A DNA stretch of 64,000 bases from Mesorhizobium sp. CAU 1732 (lineage in GTDB: Bacteria; Pseudomonadota; Alphaproteobacteria; Rhizobiales; Rhizobiaceae): the NCBI RefSeq assembly GCF_039888675.1, contig NZ_JBDQQR010000001.1, positions 372,001-436,000 on the forward strand, read 5' to 3'. A model generated the notes under the pieces. That model saw only the letters and a program-made list of their open reading frames with translations. It ran no database searches and was not told where the DNA came from. Both the position numbers and the translations under genes were made by a program. Below, piece by piece: positions 31,223 through 39,393 of the stretch; positions within the stretch are counted from its first letter, which is position 1, and each line of letters opens with the position of its first letter.

Positions 31223-31879
31223 TCAGCCGGAGACTTTTGCGTCCGCAAGGCTCCTGGCGGCACCGCTCAGCGGCAGCGGCAGGTCGATCGCATTGTCGTC
31301 CACGGAATAGACGGTGACCTTGCCCGCGCTGCCCTGGCGCATCGCCTCGAGAAGCTCGTCGGAGGCGGCGTCCTCGACGATGCAGCCTTGCGCCGTGCAC
31401 CGGCTGATCTTCAGCGTCTGGCTGAACGCCCCGATCGTCAGGGTTGCTCCGCGCGCGACGTCCACGCCGAGCGGCAGAGCGATCTGCAAGCGAGAGCCGG
31501 TCTCGGCCGACGGGCGGGCGACGGCCATGACCAACGCCACCTGCTCCCCCACCTTGCTGCGAACGATCGCCTGGCACATGTCCTTGCGCTCGCCTTCACT
31601 GCATTCGGATTGCCAGTCCGTTGCCGACGCCGAGGCGGCCGGGCGCTGCGCCGGCTGTTCCGCTGCCGGTCGCGGCGCTGCCTGCGCCGGTGGTGCTGCG
31701 GGAACCGCAGGCGCGCCTGTCGGCTCCGGCGCCTGCTCAGGCAATCCAATGGTCGGTTCCCTCTGGAGCGGCGCAACGAGCGGCCCCGAATTCGGGTCTA
31801 TCTGGGCATTCGCCGGTAGAACTCCAAAGACCAGCCATGCCGCAAAAGTCAAAATCCGGCCTTTATCAAGCGATTTCAT
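31223..31879 (-). CDS. Invasion-associated locus B (IalB) family secreted protein
   Basis: A 218-residue exported protein. The signal peptide MKSLDKGRILTFAAWLVFGV is cut near ANA at residue 25. A proline/alanine-rich linker (about residues 45-90) precedes an IalB-like domain with a Cys pair around QSECSEGERKDMCQAIV and a second pair in ISRCTAQGCIVED. The GVDVARGATLTIG and ARSLA phrases are typical of the family. IalB proteins are periplasmic or outer-membrane-associated in alphaproteobacteria, and their biochemical role is unclear. The start at 31879 gives a clean signal peptide. Confidence 0.82.
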   Translation of the reverse strand: MKSLDKGRILTFAAWLVFGVLPANAQIDPNSGPLVAPLQREPTIGLPEQAPEPTGAPAVPAAPPAQAAPRPAAEQPAQRPAASASATDWQSECSEGERKDMCQAIVRSKVGEQVALVMAVARPSAETGSRLQIALPLGVDVARGATLTIGAFSQTLKISRCTAQGCIVEDAASDELLEAMRQGSAGKVTVYSVDDNAIDLPLPLSGAARSLADAKVSG

Positions 31880-32037
31880 CAGTTCCCGCTCCCGCAAAAA
31901 ATGGTTCAAGATAACTTTACTTCAATGTCGGGAGATCGCAAATGGTTTGCGAATCACTATCCGGCATTTGTTCTATTGCGGTCATGAATAGGCGCTGATA
32001 TGAGCACGAAATGGATGAGCCGCCTGATGGGGCCAAG

Positions 32038-32397
32038 ATGTCGTTGAAGTCACTGCGCCTCTTTTGCACGGTCGGTGTTTTGAGCATCGTGCCTTCTGCT
32101 TTGGCTCAGTCGATGTCCGATGTGTATCTCAACCAGGCCGACCCGTCGACGCGGGGCGGTGGCGTCTACCTCAACCAGGTGCCGGAGACGGCGCGTCCCG
32201 TGGCGCCACGGCCGCGTGCCGCCGCACCGGCGCGGAAGCGCCCAGCGCAGACGGCCGCGGCGCCCGTCGTCTCGGCGCGTGCGGCTGGCAATTTGCCGAG
32301 ACTGCCCGACGTCGGGGCAGGCGTGGCGCTGGCCTTGTCGCCGGCTGCCGCTGACGAGCGGTTTCCCAACATCGGACGTGGTGTCGGCGGACATTAG
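32038..32397 (+). CDS. Small secreted protein with VYLNQ motifs, curli-locus associated
   Basis: A 119-residue protein I cannot assign to a family. The signal peptide SLKSLRLFCTVGVLSIV ends at SALA (residue 23). The mature start has DVYLNQADPSTRGGGVYLNQ, two copies of VYLNQ about 15 residues apart, followed by an alanine/proline/arginine-rich stretch and an ending ERFPNIGRGVGGH. It is the first gene of the curli locus and the only one of unknown type, so a role as a secretion accessory or fibre-associated protein is possible. An in-frame ATG at 32011 would spoil the signal peptide. Confidence 0.6.
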   Translation: MSLKSLRLFCTVGVLSIVPSALAQSMSDVYLNQADPSTRGGGVYLNQVPETARPVAPRPRAAAPARKRPAQTAAAPVVSARAAGNLPRLPDVGAGVALALSPAAADERFPNIGRGVGGH

Positions 32398-32751
32398 CCG
32401 GACAGATCCGCCTTTGGGCGTAGTCCCCTACCAAATGGTATTAGGCACCCCTGATCGGGCCGCATTTGCTATGGAGCAAGAAAAAGATGCTCGCGATCAG
32501 GAATAGAGGATTCCATATCAAATGACGGTGCGTTGCTGACTGGCAACACTCCTTTTCCATTAATCTTGATTGGAAATTGTTTTGTAGGAGTTGCTTGTAT
32601 CCGGGCGAAAGAGTCGATATTGCGAGTCTAGGGTTAGGGTGTTTCAAGAATCTCCATGCCGTTTAGGCAGCATTTTCGGCCGAACGCCAGATGAACTGGC
32701 GATGTGGGGAATCCACGTCATGGTTGGAGTGCTGGAGATCTAGGGGGAATT
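32398..32751. promoter_or_regulatory. AT-richer intergenic region upstream of csgG
   Basis: 354 bases without a convincing gene, noticeably more AT-rich than the flanking genes. It contains a small dyad TACCAAATGGTA at 32429-32440 (arms TACC/GGTA), which could be a regulator site, and presumably the csgG promoter. Nothing else was recognised. Confidence 0.45.
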
Positions 32752-33606
32752 ATGCTTCGTGTAAGTATTGTGAGCACGATGGTTGCTGCGGGCATGGCGC
32801 TTTCGGGCTGTGCGACGGGGCAGCAGCTTCCCACGCCGCCGGCCAAGCTCGAGGCGGCGACAAAGACGACGCACAAGATCAAGCAGATCCCGGCTCCGTC
32901 CCAGCCGGTCGATGTGGCGGTCTACGAATTTCCCGACCTGACCGGCCAGGCAAAGCCGAACGACAGTTTCGCCGAGTACAGCCGCGCGGTGACGCAGGGC
33001 GGCGCGAACCTCCTGATCGACGTGCTCAAGGCCACCGGCGGCGGCCAGTGGTTCCGCGTCGTCGAGCGTTCGGGCCTGAAGAACCTCGTCCAGGAGCGCA
33101 CGCTGATCGAGAACACGCAGCGCGCATACAATCCGGGTTCCGGTGCGCTGCCTCCCGTCCGCTTTGCTGGCCTTATCCTCGAAGGCGGCATCGTCGGCTA
33201 TGACTCGAACGAGCGCACCGGCGGCGCGGGTGCGCGCTATCTCGGCATCGGCGGCGACATGCAGTACCGGTCGGATCTGGTGACGGTTTCGCTGCGCGCG
33301 GTGAGCGTGCAGAACGGCGAAGTGCTCGCCTCGACGACCACGTCCAAGCAGATCTACTCCTATATGATGAGGGGCGGCGCCTATAAGTTTGCTGTGGCCG
33401 AAGAGCTGCTCGAGATCGAGGCCGGCATCTCCTACAACGACCCGGGACACCTCGCGGTGCGCGAGGGTATCGAACTCGCTGTGTATTCGCTGATCGTCGA
33501 CGGCCTCAAGAACGGCCTCTGGCGTCTGGCCGATCCGGCACAGCAAGAGTTGCTCATTCGACAGTTCTCAAAGGATTATGCAGGAAAAAAGCCCGCAGGA
33601 TCATAG
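32752..33606 (+). CDS. csgG: Curli secretion channel lipoprotein CsgG
   Basis: A 284-residue outer-membrane lipoprotein. The signal peptide ends in the lipobox LSGC with the lipidated Cys20. Family hallmarks follow: VYEFPDLTGQAKPNDSFAEY, VTQGGANLLIDVLKATGGG, WFRVVERSGLKNLVQERTLI, LILEGGIVGYDSN and SVQNGEVLASTTTSKQIYS. CsgG forms the nonameric pore that exports curlin subunits across the outer membrane. The start at 32752 follows AGGGGGAA. Its cargo would be the curlin-repeat proteins encoded next to it. Confidence 0.96.
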   Translation: MLRVSIVSTMVAAGMALSGCATGQQLPTPPAKLEAATKTTHKIKQIPAPSQPVDVAVYEFPDLTGQAKPNDSFAEYSRAVTQGGANLLIDVLKATGGGQWFRVVERSGLKNLVQERTLIENTQRAYNPGSGALPPVRFAGLILEGGIVGYDSNERTGGAGARYLGIGGDMQYRSDLVTVSLRAVSVQNGEVLASTTTSKQIYSYMMRGGAYKFAVAEELLEIEAGISYNDPGHLAVREGIELAVYSLIVDGLKNGLWRLADPAQQELLIRQFSKDYAGKKPAGS

Positions 33607-33977: not shown

Positions 33978-36900
33978 ATGTCACGTAAGACACTTCTGAT
34001 GGCGAGCGTCGCCATGATACCGCTGGCCGGGGCCGCGCACGCGCAGGGCAACTCGGCCTATGTCGGTCAGCTCAACAACAGCAACCTCGCCTATCTGTCG
34101 CAGGTCGGTTCGAACGACGCGTTCGTTTACCAGCACGGCACCGGCAACTTCTTCCTGCCGTACATGAATCCGATCAATCCCGACGGCGGCTCGGACGCGC
34201 AGCGCGGCACCAACACGCTCGGCACCATGCAGCTTGGCACCGCCAACTTTATCGGCGACCAGTTCCTGCAAAGCGGCAAGAACACCGCCGGCATCGCGCA
34301 GTTCGGCTCGAACAACATCGTCAACAAGTTCCTGCAGACCGGTGAGAACCGCGCCGCGGTCTTCCAGGGCGGCTACGCCAACGTTGCTCAGAACGTCCAG
34401 ACTGGCGAGAACAACGACACCGGCATCATCCAGTTGAACCTGGATTCAGCCTCGGTCGGCAACTTCGCGTCCAGCACGCAGGTTGCAGGCGCGCACAACG
34501 CCACCAACAATTCTTTCTCGGGCATTCTCCAGGGCGGATCGGGCAACGCCGCGACCGTTCTGCAGAAGGGCCAGAACGATTCGAGATCCACCATCGCACA
34601 GGGTGGCACGAGCAACGTCGCACTCAACAGCCAGACGGTCGATTTCTACGATCCGCTCGGCGAGGCCGTAGTCGATCAATACGACATGGGTCATTCCAAC
34701 GAGGCCGGCACGCTTCAGGTCGGCTCCGGCAACCTCGCGATCAACAGCCAGGATTCGAGCACGAATGGCTCCGCCACGATCATCCAGGGTGGCGATGACA
34801 ATGACGGCTTCAACCTGCATCAGGGCGGAACCGACCACAGCGCCGCCATCGGCCAGTTCGGCGACGACAACACCGCCTACAATCTGAGCCGCGACGGCAC
34901 CGGTAGCACCGCCGCAACGCTGCAGGTCGGCAACCAGAACGCTGCCACGAACAGCTCGACCAACGGTTTCGGCGACGTCGCCGGCATCGCGCAGGTCGGC
35001 AACGAGAACATCGCCGCGAACACCCAGTCCGGGTCCAGCAATCTCGTGATCCCGAATTCGGGTGCGACCGCGCTCATCGCGCAGTTCGGCAACGAGAACC
35101 AGGCTGCCAACCTTCAGAGCAACCAGGGTCCATCCAGCAACAACGTTGCCGGAATTGCCCAGGTCGGCGATCTGAACCGCGCTGGCAACACGCAGCTTGG
35201 CGGTGCTTCCAACGAGGCCGGCATTCTGCAGGTGGGTATCGGCAACACCGAAACCGACTACAACATCGCGGGCAACCTTCAGGATGGCGGTGCAGGCAAT
35301 TCGGCCGGCATAGTCCAGGTCGGCGCAGCCAACACCGGCTACAACACGCAGAACGGCACTGACGGGTCCGATGCCACGATCGCGCAGTTCGGCGCCGGCA
35401 ACACCGGAACCAACCTGCAGAACGGCAAGATGCCGCGTCTTGGCCAGTCGAACGAAGCCTCGATCCTCCAGGTCGGCGTCGACAACACGGCGGTCAACCT
35501 TCAGGTCGACCTGGCCGGCAGCCTGACCAATCCGGGCGGCCCCTTCGACAGCAGCACCGACATCGTGCAGGTCGGTCGCGACAACACCGCGAGCGGGTAT
35601 CAGTACGAGACGAGCACCGGACGCCAGACGACAGGCCAGTTCGGCGCGCGCAACGCCGCAGTGACGCTTCAGGCGCAGGGCACGGGCGCCGGATCGGATA
35701 CGCTCCAGATCGGCGCGGACAACACGTCCTTCACGTCGCAACTGCACTCGCAGTCCAACGTTTCGGATGCGTTCGACGTAAACACGGCGGCAACGCTGCA
35801 GGTGGGTTCGAACAACGCTGCCTCCAATCTCCAGTCCGTGGTTCGCACGACGTCGGCCGCGATCGGCCAGTTCGGCGACTGGAACTCCGGTTTGAACGTC
35901 CAGAACGGCGGCGAAAACAACGCGGCCGGCATTCTGCAGGTCGGCATCGGCGCCGCTTCCGACGCACGGAACTCGGCGGTCAACGCGCAGGATGGCGGCA
36001 ATACAAACACTGCGAACATCATCCAGGCCGGCAACACCAACGCGGGCCTCAACACTCAGACGGGTGGCTCGGATGCGACGGCACTCATCGTGCAGGCCGG
36101 TTCGAACAATGTCGGCGTGAACACGCAGACCAATGTCGATCCGACCTCGGCGACCGTGATCCAGCTCGGTTCGGGCAGCACCGGTGTCAACACGCAGACA
36201 AACGTCAACGACTCCAGCGCCCTCATCGTCCAGTACGGCGACGGCTCGGCGCAGAACGTGGGCGCTAACACGCAGACAGATGTCAACGACAGCTCGGCGA
36301 TCATCATCCAGGGCAATAACGGGGGCGCAACCAACTTCGCCTTCAATATCCAGAACGGCGTGATCGACTCCACTGCCTTCATTGCGCAGTTCGGCGCAGG
36401 CAATTTTGCGACCAACACGCAGCACGCTGGCAGCGCCAGCGTCGATGCGGCGATCGTGCAAGCCGGCACCGGCAACATTGCCGGCAACACGCAGGGGCAG
36501 GTCTTTTCAGTTTCGCATAGCTTTGATGCGTTTACCGAGATCACCGGAAGCACTGGCGGACCGAATGGCTCCCCCAACAAGCGCACGGTGTATAGCGGAA
36601 CGACCGTGACCGTCGATGGAAATGCGGCCGCAGTCGGGTCTGCGGCGGCGATTGCCCAGATCGGCAACAACAACGTCGCGTCGAATTCGCAGATCGGCAG
36701 TGCCGCGTTTTCGGCTACGAGCTATACGACCTCCGCTCAGAGGCAGACGAAGAATGGCAATGGCGTCTGGGTAAACAACGGGCAACCGACTCAGGAAGTC
36801 GTGCTTCTCGACACACCGATCGTTGGCAATTCGGCTGCAGCAACCGCGTCCAACGCCATCATCGGCCAGTTCGGCGACGGCAACTTCGCGACCAACAGCC

Positions 36901-37946
36901 AGATCGCGACATCGGGGGCGGATGCCGCTTCGGTGCAGATCGGTGACGGCAATGCCGCCGTCAACACGCAGACGGTCGCGGTTGATGCCAAGGCTGCGAA
37001 CCTTCAGGTCGGCAACAACAACGCCGCTCTGAACACGCAGACCGGCGGTGTCGGTGCAGCCGCTGCCAACATTCAGGTCGGCGGCGACAACGTTGCAACG
37101 AACGAGCAGGTTGGGGTTGCGGGCTCCGGTGCTCTGAACATCCAGATCGGTGACGGTAGCGGTGCGTCGAACGTCCAGACGGCAACGGTTGGCTCGGATG
37201 CCGCCAACGTTCAGGTGGGTGACGGCAACATTGCGGCGAACCTGCAGCTCGAAACCACTGACGCCACGGCAGCCAACGCCCAGTTCGGCAACGGCAACGT
37301 CGCCGGAAACACGCAGCAGAACGGCTCTTCGCAGGTTGCTGCCGGCATAGCTCAGATCGGCAACGACAACGTCGCGGCGACACTGCAGCTTGCCTCGGTC
37401 GGCGCGATCTCCGGAACGCTTCAGATCGGTGATCTGAACACGTCAGCGACCACCCAGTCAGCCGTGGCGGGCGTAGCTGCTGCGACGGTTCAGAGTGGAA
37501 CGGGCAACACCGCCTCCGTGCTGCAGCACACGTCTGCGCTCTCGGCAGCCGGCACCGTTCAGATCGGCAGCAACAACGGTGCATCAACCGTCCAGCAGAA
37601 CGGCACGGGAAACACCGCGCTGACGTTCCAGAACGGAAGCAACAACCTTGCGTCCACACTGCAGATCGCCAGCACCGGCAGCTCGTCGCTCATCGTGCAG
37701 AACGCCACGAACTCGGGGGCAGGCGTTCTCCAGACCGGCACCTCGCATTCCTCGACCATTCTCCAGTCGGGCGATCTGAGCTTTGCCTATGTCGACCAGA
37801 GCGGCAGCGGCAACACCTCGCTGGTCATCCAGGACGGCCTCGGCGGCAATGCCAACATCGCAACCGTGACGCAGCGCAACTCCGGCCAGAACTCGCTGGT
37901 CTTCCAGCAGGGTCGCGGGAACGTCGCTGCGGTCATCCAGAACTAA
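33978..37946 (+). CDS. Giant curlin-repeat protein (about 48 repeats), major curli-type amyloid subunit
   Basis: A 1322-residue secreted protein. The signal peptide SRKTLLMASVAMIPLAG ends at AHA (residue 22). Almost all the rest is curlin-like repeats of about 22-23 residues with the pattern I-x-Q-[VFI]-G-x2-N-x-A-x3-Q, for example IAQFGNENQAANLQ and VQVGDGNIAANLQ. By hand I count about 48 units; E. coli CsgA has five. Two non-repeat insertions of about 50 residues lie near residues 839-889 and 905-960. It should be exported through CsgG and form a beta-solenoid amyloid. The last unit, LVFQQGRGNVAAVIQN, resembles the end of the small curlin at 39.5 kb. Strong periodicity at the DNA level accompanies the protein repeat. 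Confidence 0.93.
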   Translation: MSRKTLLMASVAMIPLAGAAHAQGNSAYVGQLNNSNLAYLSQVGSNDAFVYQHGTGNFFLPYMNPINPDGGSDAQRGTNTLGTMQLGTANFIGDQFLQSGKNTAGIAQFGSNNIVNKFLQTGENRAAVFQGGYANVAQNVQTGENNDTGIIQLNLDSASVGNFASSTQVAGAHNATNNSFSGILQGGSGNAATVLQKGQNDSRSTIAQGGTSNVALNSQTVDFYDPLGEAVVDQYDMGHSNEAGTLQVGSGNLAINSQDSSTNGSATIIQGGDDNDGFNLHQGGTDHSAAIGQFGDDNTAYNLSRDGTGSTAATLQVGNQNAATNSSTNGFGDVAGIAQVGNENIAANTQSGSSNLVIPNSGATALIAQFGNENQAANLQSNQGPSSNNVAGIAQVGDLNRAGNTQLGGASNEAGILQVGIGNTETDYNIAGNLQDGGAGNSAGIVQVGAANTGYNTQNGTDGSDATIAQFGAGNTGTNLQNGKMPRLGQSNEASILQVGVDNTAVNLQVDLAGSLTNPGGPFDSSTDIVQVGRDNTASGYQYETSTGRQTTGQFGARNAAVTLQAQGTGAGSDTLQIGADNTSFTSQLHSQSNVSDAFDVNTAATLQVGSNNAASNLQSVVRTTSAAIGQFGDWNSGLNVQNGGENNAAGILQVGIGAASDARNSAVNAQDGGNTNTANIIQAGNTNAGLNTQTGGSDATALIVQAGSNNVGVNTQTNVDPTSATVIQLGSGSTGVNTQTNVNDSSALIVQYGDGSAQNVGANTQTDVNDSSAIIIQGNNGGATNFAFNIQNGVIDSTAFIAQFGAGNFATNTQHAGSASVDAAIVQAGTGNIAGNTQGQVFSVSHSFDAFTEITGSTGGPNGSPNKRTVYSGTTVTVDGNAAAVGSAAAIAQIGNNNVASNSQIGSAAFSATSYTTSAQRQTKNGNGVWVNNGQPTQEVVLLDTPIVGNSAAATASNAIIGQFGDGNFATNSQIATSGADAASVQIGDGNAAVNTQTVAVDAKAANLQVGNNNAALNTQTGGVGAAAANIQVGGDNVATNEQVGVAGSGALNIQIGDGSGASNVQTATVGSDAANVQVGDGNIAANLQLETTDATAANAQFGNGNVAGNTQQNGSSQVAAGIAQIGNDNVAATLQLASVGAISGTLQIGDLNTSATTQSAVAGVAAATVQSGTGNTASVLQHTSALSAAGTVQIGSNNGASTVQQNGTGNTALTFQNGSNNLASTLQIASTGSSSLIVQNATNSGAGVLQTGTSHSSTILQSGDLSFAYVDQSGSGNTSLVIQDGLGGNANIATVTQRNSGQNSLVFQQGRGNVAAVIQN

Positions 37947-38014
37947 GCGACACCTTGCAGGGCGCGTGTCTTGTGGCACGCGCCCTGCATCTTCCTGAGC
38001 AAAGGGAGGCGAGG

Positions 38015-38422
38015 ATGTTTCAAAAAGCGACGATCGCCGGCGGCATCTTCTTCCTTTCGGGCATGACAGGCGAAGCTTCGATGAATGACCGGATCGTAAC
38101 AGGCGAGATCCTCGACCAGCGCCTCGCGCAATGCGGCGTGCGGATCGACGGAACCGAGATCGCGACGCTGCGGCCCTTCATCGAAACGTCGGAAGCACTG
38201 ACCGGGACCTTTCGCATCAACGTCACCAAGCGTTCGCGTTCGGGAACAAGCATGACGAGCCAGTCCAACCGGTTCGCCAACGGCTCGCTCGGCGAGACGG
38301 TTCTCGCGGTCGATCGGCCGTCCACGGTCGTGATCGACATGCAGGTGAACGGGATGGACGGGAAGACCTACTGCCGCGTGAATGCGGAAATCGAGCTCGA
38401 AGAGCCCTCGATACGGCTCTGA
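38015..38422 (+). CDS. csgH: CsgH-like curli chaperone
   Basis: A 135-residue exported protein resembling alphaproteobacterial CsgH, a CsgC-like immunoglobulin-fold periplasmic chaperone that delays curlin amyloid formation. Visible are Cys in RLAQCGVRIDG and in KTYCRVNAEIEL (a probable disulfide), and the strand pattern TGTFRINVTKRSRSGTS ... GETVLAV. The hydrophobic N-terminus FQKATIAGGIFFLSGMTG acts as signal sequence. The start at 38015 follows AAAGGGAGG. It sits between two curlin-repeat genes, consistent with its guarding them in the periplasm. Confidence 0.8.
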   Translation: MFQKATIAGGIFFLSGMTGEASMNDRIVTGEILDQRLAQCGVRIDGTEIATLRPFIETSEALTGTFRINVTKRSRSGTSMTSQSNRFANGSLGETVLAVDRPSTVVIDMQVNGMDGKTYCRVNAEIELEEPSIRL

Positions 38423-38456
38423 ACGAGCCGCAGAGAGCAACAGGCGGGGAACGTAC

Positions 38457-39065
38457 ATGCGCAATTGGAAATCCAAGCTTGCAGGGGCGGTCGCCGCACT
38501 GGTGATCGGTTCGGTCGGTGCAAACGCCGAAGGCATCAAGATCATCGATCAGTCGGAGTATACCGGACAGGAAGCGACGGACGTGATCGGTGCTCTCATG
38601 CAGCCGATCAACCCGTTCATCACGGGCGCTGCTCAGACCACGACCTCGATCACGCAGATCGGCGAGAACAACTTCGCGACGTCGTCAGTGGAGGGCACGA
38701 GCAGCCTGTCGCTGATCGAACAGAGCGGCACGCGCAACCGTGCGGTCCAGGCGATCGAGGGGCACAACTCCGCGCTGTTGCTCGTGCAGGGCGGCACCAA
38801 CAACAACGTGCTCCAGGCGAGTCGTGGTGACAACAACTTCCAGTTGGTCGGCGTCTCCGGCCAGAACAACAATGTCGGTTTCGTCCAGGTCGGCGACAAT
38901 CTGGCCGGCGTTCTCGATGTTCGCGGTTCGACGAATTCGACTGTGATTGCGGTGCAAACGCCACAGTCGGGAAACTATATGATGCCGACGGGACTTCGCG
39001 GTCTGCAAAACACCGCAGTGGTTATTGTTCCCGGTCGCATGTATGTGATACCTGTCAACAGATAA
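38457..39065 (+). CDS. Second curlin-repeat protein
   Basis: A 202-residue exported protein with signal peptide MRNWKSKLAGAVAALVIG cut after ANA (residue 24). After a spacer of about 45 residues come roughly five to six curlin-type units: ITQIGENNFATSS, LIEQSGTRNRAVQA, LVQGGTNNNVLQA, VGVSGQNNNVGFV and VQVGDNLAGVLDV. The C-terminus (AVVIVPGRMYVIPVNR) is not repeat-like. It may be a nucleator or a minor subunit of the fibre formed by the giant curlin. I cannot decide between CsgA and CsgB roles from sequence. It starts 34 bases after csgH. Confidence 0.85.
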   Translation: MRNWKSKLAGAVAALVIGSVGANAEGIKIIDQSEYTGQEATDVIGALMQPINPFITGAAQTTTSITQIGENNFATSSVEGTSSLSLIEQSGTRNRAVQAIEGHNSALLLVQGGTNNNVLQASRGDNNFQLVGVSGQNNNVGFVQVGDNLAGVLDVRGSTNSTVIAVQTPQSGNYMMPTGLRGLQNTAVVIVPGRMYVIPVNR

Positions 39066-39114
39066 ACGATCTGATGGAATCTTGCGCCGCAAGTTGTCCG
39101 CGTGGGGAAGAGAA

Positions 39115-39393
39115 ATGAAGATACTTTCAACACTGTTCGCATCTGCGATCGTCATCGGTTCAATCGGCGCGGCAAGCGCGTCTGAGCTCGTCTATCGCCC
39201 CGTCAATCCGTCGTTCGGCGGCGATCCGCTCAACGGCAACTGGCTGCTGTCGCAGGCGACGTCACAGACGCCGGGCGGCGGCTCGCCGGGGTTCACGATC
39301 GATTTCCCTGATTTCGGCGGGATTCCGCAGCCCACGCCTACTCCAACCCCCTTGCCCGAAGTGCCGGGCGGACCGGCTGCTGCGGGCGGCTGA
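39115..39393 (+). CDS. csgF: Curli assembly factor CsgF
   Basis: A 92-residue exported protein. The signal peptide MKILSTLFASAIVIGSIG is cut near SAS. The mature N-terminus LVYRPVNPSFGGDPLNGNWL is the hallmark of CsgF, the segment known to plug into the CsgG pore. The usual C-terminal domain is short here and replaced by a Pro/Thr/Gly-rich tail (PQPTPTPTPLPEVPGG), so it is smaller than E. coli CsgF. It probably anchors the curli nucleator at the CsgG channel. Confidence 0.93.
   Translation: MKILSTLFASAIVIGSIGAASASELVYRPVNPSFGGDPLNGNWLLSQATSQTPGGGSPGFTIDFPDFGGIPQPTPTPTPLPEVPGGPAAAGG

Follow-up and report, generated by a model that had tools for sequence, protein, structure and literature searches.

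Introduction

Curlins are the subunits of curli, sticky amyloid fibers found in biofilms, and those published differ widely in length. Enterobacterial CsgA has about 152 amino acids (aa), and the survey in which csgH was named gives at most 22 repeats and a largest CsgA of 529 aa (Dueholm et al. 2012, PMC3521004). Sleutel et al. 2023 reported CsgA homologues with 4-62 repeats, the extreme being WP_189563214.1, and modeled 2686 curlins as solenoids whose monomer length scales with repeat number (PMC10192328); a 2025 review gives 3-52 repeats (PMC12822426). Among the partner proteins, CsgH inhibits amyloid formation by CsgA (PMC4838910), and CsgF of Escherichia coli lines the CsgG pore with residues 20-53 (PMC7304575) and binds CsgB through its C-terminal part (PMC6957492). 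Here we describe a curli gene cassette in a 64,000-nucleotide stretch of the genome of the soil-type bacterium Mesorhizobium sp. CAU 1732 (the window), in which a giant curlin gene occurs together with a csgF that is shortened at its C-terminal end. The giant protein is likely the major fiber subunit of a Rhizobiales curli (type VIII secretion) system. What is new is the CsgF without the domain that holds the fiber, a state that is constant over the cassette copies read.

Repeat Array of the Giant Curlin

A sequence-only reading of the window had proposed a curlin of 1322 residues with about 48 repeats. The frame was confirmed; it begins with ATG, carries a purine-rich stretch immediately 5' of the start, and is open throughout (Table 1). 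By eye, the N-terminus of the translation is signal-like. Without its first 23 residues the product has a mass of about 128 kDa, an acidic computed pI of 4.05, and no cysteine, which is absent from 16 of the 19 giants compared below. The strict motif Q-x-G-x-x-N occurs 44 times and the loose motif Q-x-G-x-x-[NST] 52 times, whereas 20 shuffled versions average 5.55 loose motifs. Motifs are present from residue 25 through the final residue. The repeats follow the curlin consensus N-x-psi-x-psi-x-Q-x-G-x-x-N-x-psi-x-psi-x-Q of about 23 residues.

A repeat profile seeded with the 19 giants marked 52 stretches, 40 of them at an independent E value below 1e-3, and 41 stretches covered at least 16 of the 23 profile positions at an independent E value below 0.01; on 20 shuffles, none of 100 reported stretches reached 1e-3. 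This test is partly circular because the giant itself was among the seeds; a profile made from the giant alone marked 53 stretches. By these motif and profile counts, the hand count of about 48 units was a fair one. When Pfam Curlin_rpt was run, as had been suggested for counting units, the family was recognized above its cut-off (25.4 bits; cut-off 20.7), and just four stretches were individually significant. NCBIfam CsgB scored 100.4 bits over nine stretches and NCBIfam CsgA 87.8 bits over eight, both short of the equivalog cut-offs (165 and 160, respectively), and the sequence matched the solved CsgA 8c50 at E 3.2e-15. Independent profiles agree in kind but yield lower counts. Given the published ranges, a curlin of 50 repeats belongs to a known kind, and the idea that such length makes a new design of fiber is mistaken, since PMC10192328 and PMC12822426 already report ranges of 4-62 and 3-52 repeats, respectively.

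Among the giants, both ends of the array align one-to-one, and their Q, G, and N columns hardly vary (residues 25 to 316 at the N-terminal end); the middle gains and loses blocks. The lineage-specific block of Table 1 is 31-34% identical to segments elsewhere in the array, shows near-zero conservation across the 18 other giants, and corresponds to a 265-aa gap in four listed comparisons (L010, L066, L067, and L070; such labels are our handles for loci). DNA repeats longer than 100 bases inside the gene are 64-72% identical, and the closer pairs (up to 96%) are only 24-60 bases long. A recent tandem expansion at the DNA level was rejected on the low identity of the longer repeats. An antisense open frame of 671 aa (34446-36461, minus strand) also lies inside the gene and most probably just reflects its G+C-rich codon use.

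Predicted Fold

Structure predictions were made from alignments of 12 of the 14 Rhizobiales loci described below (L017 and L021 left out). In the predicted model, residues 954-1311 adopt the two-sheet curli beta-solenoid fold, with a root-mean-square deviation (rmsd) from 8c50 of 1.1 Å over 354 of 355 residues, and residues 684-900 are predicted to be beta. The long beta-solenoid suggested by the sequence-only reading was predicted for the C-terminal half; the model of the N-terminal half (residues 24-690) had no curli chain among its listed neighbors and a predicted local distance difference test (pLDDT) score of just 70.6.

Several points weigh against the mechanism proposed below. The C-terminal half exceeded a pLDDT of 80 in just one of five AlphaFold 2 (AF2) models, and Foldseek's own alignment of this half with 8c50, though at E 5.2e-9, had an rmsd of 17.6 and a template modeling (TM) score of 0.29. 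The low score of the N-terminal half counts on the same side, as do its listed Foldseek and VIA neighbors, which are beta-helix proteins and include no curli. The array itself is interrupted, with gaps of about 47 and 48 aa after residues 840 and 909 and shorter gaps elsewhere. AF2 with sparse alignments often gives curlins the wrong hand (PMC10192328), so the result for the N-terminal half is not decisive, and the missing curli chain among its listed neighbors is no proof of a different fold.

A Conserved Cassette with a Shortened CsgF

The cassette runs in the order IalB, small protein, csgG, giant curlin, csgH, 200-aa curlin, csgF, and CsgB-like gene. The giant is thus encoded with csg genes, csgG, csgH, csgF, and the CsgB-like gene all lying within 32.7-39.9 kb, and its position between csgG and csgH, as first read from the sequence, was upheld by family models for both neighbors (Table 1). 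A scan with CsgG found 16 loci, 14 in Rhizobiales (including Aliihoeflea, Rhizobium, Ensifer, and Ahrensia) and two in sphingomonads. In all 14 Rhizobiales loci, csgG, the giant, csgH, the 200-aa curlin, the short csgF, the CsgB-like gene, and IalB hold the same places, and the giants measure 931-1375 aa, lengths counted from the first possible start codon that may overshoot by some tens of residues. The largest curlins of the two sphingomonad loci have 742 and 759 aa. Four more giant loci came from other genomes of the same family. The full set comprises 19 giant loci; L068, L069, and L071 duplicate L011, L010, and L019 and were not recounted, and a decayed locus (L072) was excluded.

CsgF of the cassette keeps the plug motif, although its match to E. 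coli CsgF is weak (E 0.012). The N-terminal part that binds CsgG was found, and the C-terminal domain that binds CsgB was not. Measured from the start of the NPSFGG motif, CsgF ends after 53-67 residues in all 19 giant loci, whereas it ends after 101-146 residues in all 28 other loci in which CsgF was found. This comparison was made by length, and the 28 come from 45 other curli loci, the remaining 17 having no CsgF match at 1e-5 with the window CsgF as query. The Pfam CsgF match stays within positions 3-48 of 132 in 9/9 cassette genomes and reaches position 132 in 3/3 other curli genomes of the family. After the plug, the CsgF of giant loci has a conserved stretch similar to SPGFSIDFPDFGG and, in most cases, a proline-rich tail. 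Judged by its length, the predicted protein is too short in 19/19 loci to include a counterpart of the CsgB-binding domain of E. coli CsgF, and the chain from CsgG through the N-terminal and C-terminal parts of CsgF to CsgB and CsgA is therefore short of one link. The possibility that a different frame encodes the missing domain was dismissed for the window, where just 71 bases separate csgF from the convergent CsgB-like frame. By its conservation, including that of its non-curlin C-terminus, the 200-aa curlin (best-segment identity 57-74% in 14/14 Rhizobiales loci) is a candidate substitute link. We found no description of a cassette with a shortened CsgF in the excerpts of open-license literature available to us.

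Curlin matches at E <= 0.001 occurred in 27 of 101 family genomes drawn. With the 200-aa curlin as query (E <= 1e-10), the cassette was found in only 9 of 394 family genomes, which represent 8 of 109 genera; the six other members drawn from its own genus yielded no copy. Apart from transporter genes, the window's neighboring genes had no homologue at E <= 1e-20 in the flanks of the Rhizobiales loci (about 8 kb left and 4 kb right). This pattern suggests that the cassette moves or is lost as a whole unit. One of the nine copies of the family draw, L072 (4446-7014), is decayed: csgH, the 200-aa curlin, the short csgF, and the CsgB-like gene are kept, the giant is reduced to a 233-aa C-terminal curlin frame, and csgG and IalB were not found within 15 kb; other genomes have intact copies. 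Among the loci read, the complete frames longer than 900 aa were the cassette giants and one 1135-aa open reading frame in L074 (from 5080). The latter carries 16 curlin-like motifs, neither csgG nor csgF nor csgH was found within 15 kb of it, and it is perhaps a curlin-like adhesin.

CsgE and Subunit Length

No CsgE match at E <= 10 was found in the genome of the window, which thus departs from the canonical system, and none above the cut-off in 12 family curli genomes, including all nine cassette genomes searched; four had weak matches (E 0.27-0.65). In a draw of 398 Pseudomonadota genomes (curlin threshold E <= 1e-4), 41 had curlins and 27 had CsgE. These 27 are exactly the curlin genomes outside Alphaproteobacteria, and CsgE was found in 0/14 alphaproteobacterial curlin genomes. 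Across 30 stretches from the 27 CsgE genomes, complete curlin frames reached at most 553 aa, a ceiling that is not exhaustive because stretches from the genomes G248, G429, and G478 and the other curlin places of G394, which was covered in part, were left out. Frames of 761-862 aa in the draw came from genomes without a CsgE match. Ten stretches from CsgE-less alphaproteobacteria gave a largest curlin of 862 aa, and in five of them the largest had only 117-196 aa. Frames running off a stretch, among them a 258-aa frame in L033 and a 1938-aa frame in L061 that has only four loose motifs, were excluded from these counts.

Long subunits and the lack of CsgE go together, within one class, and ancestry therefore explains the association as well as mechanism does. 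Absence of CsgE as the cause of great length was rejected as inseparable from ancestry, small curlins also occurring in five of the ten CsgE-less stretches.

Proposed Mechanism and Alternative Explanations

From these results we infer a pathway in which the giant chain would leave the cytoplasm through Sec, be prevented by CsgH from folding in the periplasm, and be threaded through a CsgG pore plugged by the short CsgF. Outside the cell, it would fold to a rod-like beta-solenoid of about 50 rungs, about 24 nm long at 4.8 Å per rung, and such rods would stack end to end to a curli fiber with about one-tenth of the joints of E. coli curli. Attachment to the cell would do without the link from the CsgF C-domain to CsgB and use another bond. 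Candidates for it are the 200-aa curlin and the two ends of the giant chain, all of them conserved; the fiber may thus be tethered differently from E. coli curli.

Some observations count against this explanation as a whole. When the full giant was used as query against a protein database, none of 7992 scored candidates qualified as a homologue at E <= 0.001. The locus searches did recover orthologues of the giant, and the null search is taken to be a putative effect of compositional bias. The giant loci were located by the similarity of their csgG or 200-aa curlin genes and appear to go back to a single ancestor; the pairing of giant subunit and short CsgF therefore counts as one evolutionary event.

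A stronger version of the proposal holds that the pathway is re-wired, a chain of 1000-1400 residues being exported without CsgE, the fiber being held by the giant chain or the 200-aa curlin instead of by CsgF and CsgB, and CsgF serving as a pore-narrowing ring. In the model of a CsgE-capped CsgG cage, a chain of this length would not fit such a cage. We put this version forward tentatively and would not expect all of it to hold.

It is conceivable, though less likely than not, that the giant is an ordinary CsgA that gained repeats neutrally, its length having no function and the CsgF truncation being incidental. Published repeat numbers do vary widely (PMC10192328, PMC12822426), and the window's giant has a 265-aa block missing in relatives. 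However, the 19 giants stay within 931-1375 aa although they are 41-61% identical in all but 5 of 171 pairs, and the DNA repeats of the gene look old at 64-72% identity in pairs longer than 100 bases. Neutral gain overlaps the explanation favored here, which claims a fiber subunit and not an adaptive length.

The giant might instead act as a single long rod, a surface adhesin or matrix cross-linker that does not polymerize, the small curlins forming the fiber. The cassette has two small curlins and the genome a second CsgA-CsgH-CsgB set, 50 rungs would already span about 24 nm, both ends of the giant are well conserved, and the CsgB-recruiting part of CsgF is gone. Ordinary curlin motifs at both ends, where no extra capping domain was found, speak against a non-polymerizing rod, and so does the similarity of its C-terminus to the C-terminal end of the CsgB-like protein (34% over 85 residues by blastp, E 8e-6); we consider it improbable. 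Although repetitive genes are prone to collapse or expansion in assembly, an assembly or annotation artefact is highly improbable, since the repeats differ too much at the DNA level to mislead an assembler and the same gene stands in the same place in assemblies of other species.

The length alone is no news. The cassette is of interest as a natural experiment on the role of the CsgF C-terminal domain, missing in 19/19 loci, and on CsgE versus substrate size, and it offers very long curlin rods to materials research.

Other Genes of the Cassette and a Second Curli Set

The cassette's csgG is the only CsgG match in the whole genome; positions 2-208 of the 210 in the Pfam profile are covered and E. 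coli CsgG (3x2r) is matched at E 1.8e-49, so that the pore domain is present. Read by eye, its true start is perhaps the ATG at 32752. The csgH product exceeds the cut-off of the alphaproteobacterial CsgH model (Table 1); Pfam CsgH scored 15.0 bits, below its cut-off of 27, and no solved CsgH structure was matched by sequence. The true csgH start is probably downstream of the TTG. Pfam Curlin_rpt gave 19.9 bits for the 200-aa curlin, slightly below the cut-off of 20.7. The CsgB-like protein, whose gene is present in 14/14 Rhizobiales loci, scored 54.3 bits with NCBIfam CsgB, below the equivalog cut-off of 165. At the left edge, the IalB homologue lies left of csgG in 14/14 Rhizobiales loci (L010-L023). 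The small protein next to it had no Pfam match at E <= 1 and a blastp homologue (1e-3) beside csgG in 9 of the 14; it looks secreted and repeats a VYLNQ motif.

Table 1. Features of the giant curlin cassette (positions in the window).
Feature	Position	Strand	Remarks
IalB-family secreted protein	31223..31909	-	Divergent, left cassette edge; Pfam IalB 73.4 bits
Small signal-bearing protein, 128 aa, signal by eye	32011..32397	+	Family not assigned
csgG, outer-membrane secretion pore	32704..33606	+	Pfam CsgG 175.1 bits
Giant curlin, 1322 aa	33978..37946	+	About 50 repeats of 22-23 aa behind signal-like N-terminus
N-terminal conserved array part, residues 24 to about 320	34047..34937	+	One-to-one alignment among giants
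Lineage-specific block, about 265 aa, residues about 405-670	35190..35987	+	Curlin-like
Predicted continuous beta-solenoid, residues 684-1322	36027..37943	+	Residues 954-1311 superpose on solved curlin
csgH, CsgC-like periplasmic amyloid inhibitor	37955..38422	+	NCBIfam NF041112 47.0 bits, cut-off 35
Short curlin, listed at 227 aa (several relatives: about 200 aa)	38382..39065	+	Few repeats; non-curlin C-terminus conserved
csgF, CsgG-binding N-terminal part and Pro-rich tail	39082..39393	+	Pfam CsgF 50.6 bits, profile 6-46 of 132
CsgB-like small curlin, 132 aa	39465..39863	-	Convergent, right cassette edge; Pfam Curlin_rpt 45.4 bits

A second curli set lies elsewhere in the genome (C1:3329652-3331137; L078 7653-9138) and encodes a CsgA-like protein of 144 aa, CsgH (91.8 bits), and a CsgB-like protein of 138 aa. 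No csgG was found beside this set, the genome's one CsgG match being that of the giant cassette, and the two may share it. The set adjoins a gene for a 592-aa protein (L078 10442-12217) in which calcium-binding RTX-like repeats were read by eye.

Comparison with Known Systems

The cassette shares with the curli of E. coli (csgBAC and csgDEFG) a CsgG pore, the CsgF plug motif, curlin subunits, and a CsgC-like inhibitor, here CsgH. Unlike that system, it has no CsgE match, its CsgF lacks the CsgB-binding domain, it has an extra 200-aa curlin, and its giant subunit is nearly ninefold longer than the CsgA of about 152 aa. The alphaproteobacterial CsgA/B and CsgH sets of Dueholm et al. 2012 (PMC3521004) are alike in having CsgH beside the subunit and in missing CsgE. 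The second set of the same genome (C1:3.33 Mb) is one of this kind and differs from the cassette in its subunits of about 140 aa and in having no adjoining csgG. CsgA R15.5 of Pontibacter korlensis (8c50; PMC10192328) has the canonical repeat and a fold like that predicted for residues 954-1311 of the giant, but 15.5 repeats against about 50, and the array gaps of 47-48 aa are a feature of the giant. Compared by repeat number, the giant falls inside the published range of very long CsgA homologues, which it resembles, whereas the cassette and its CsgF are not described in the passages of those sources consulted here (PMC10192328, PMC12822426).

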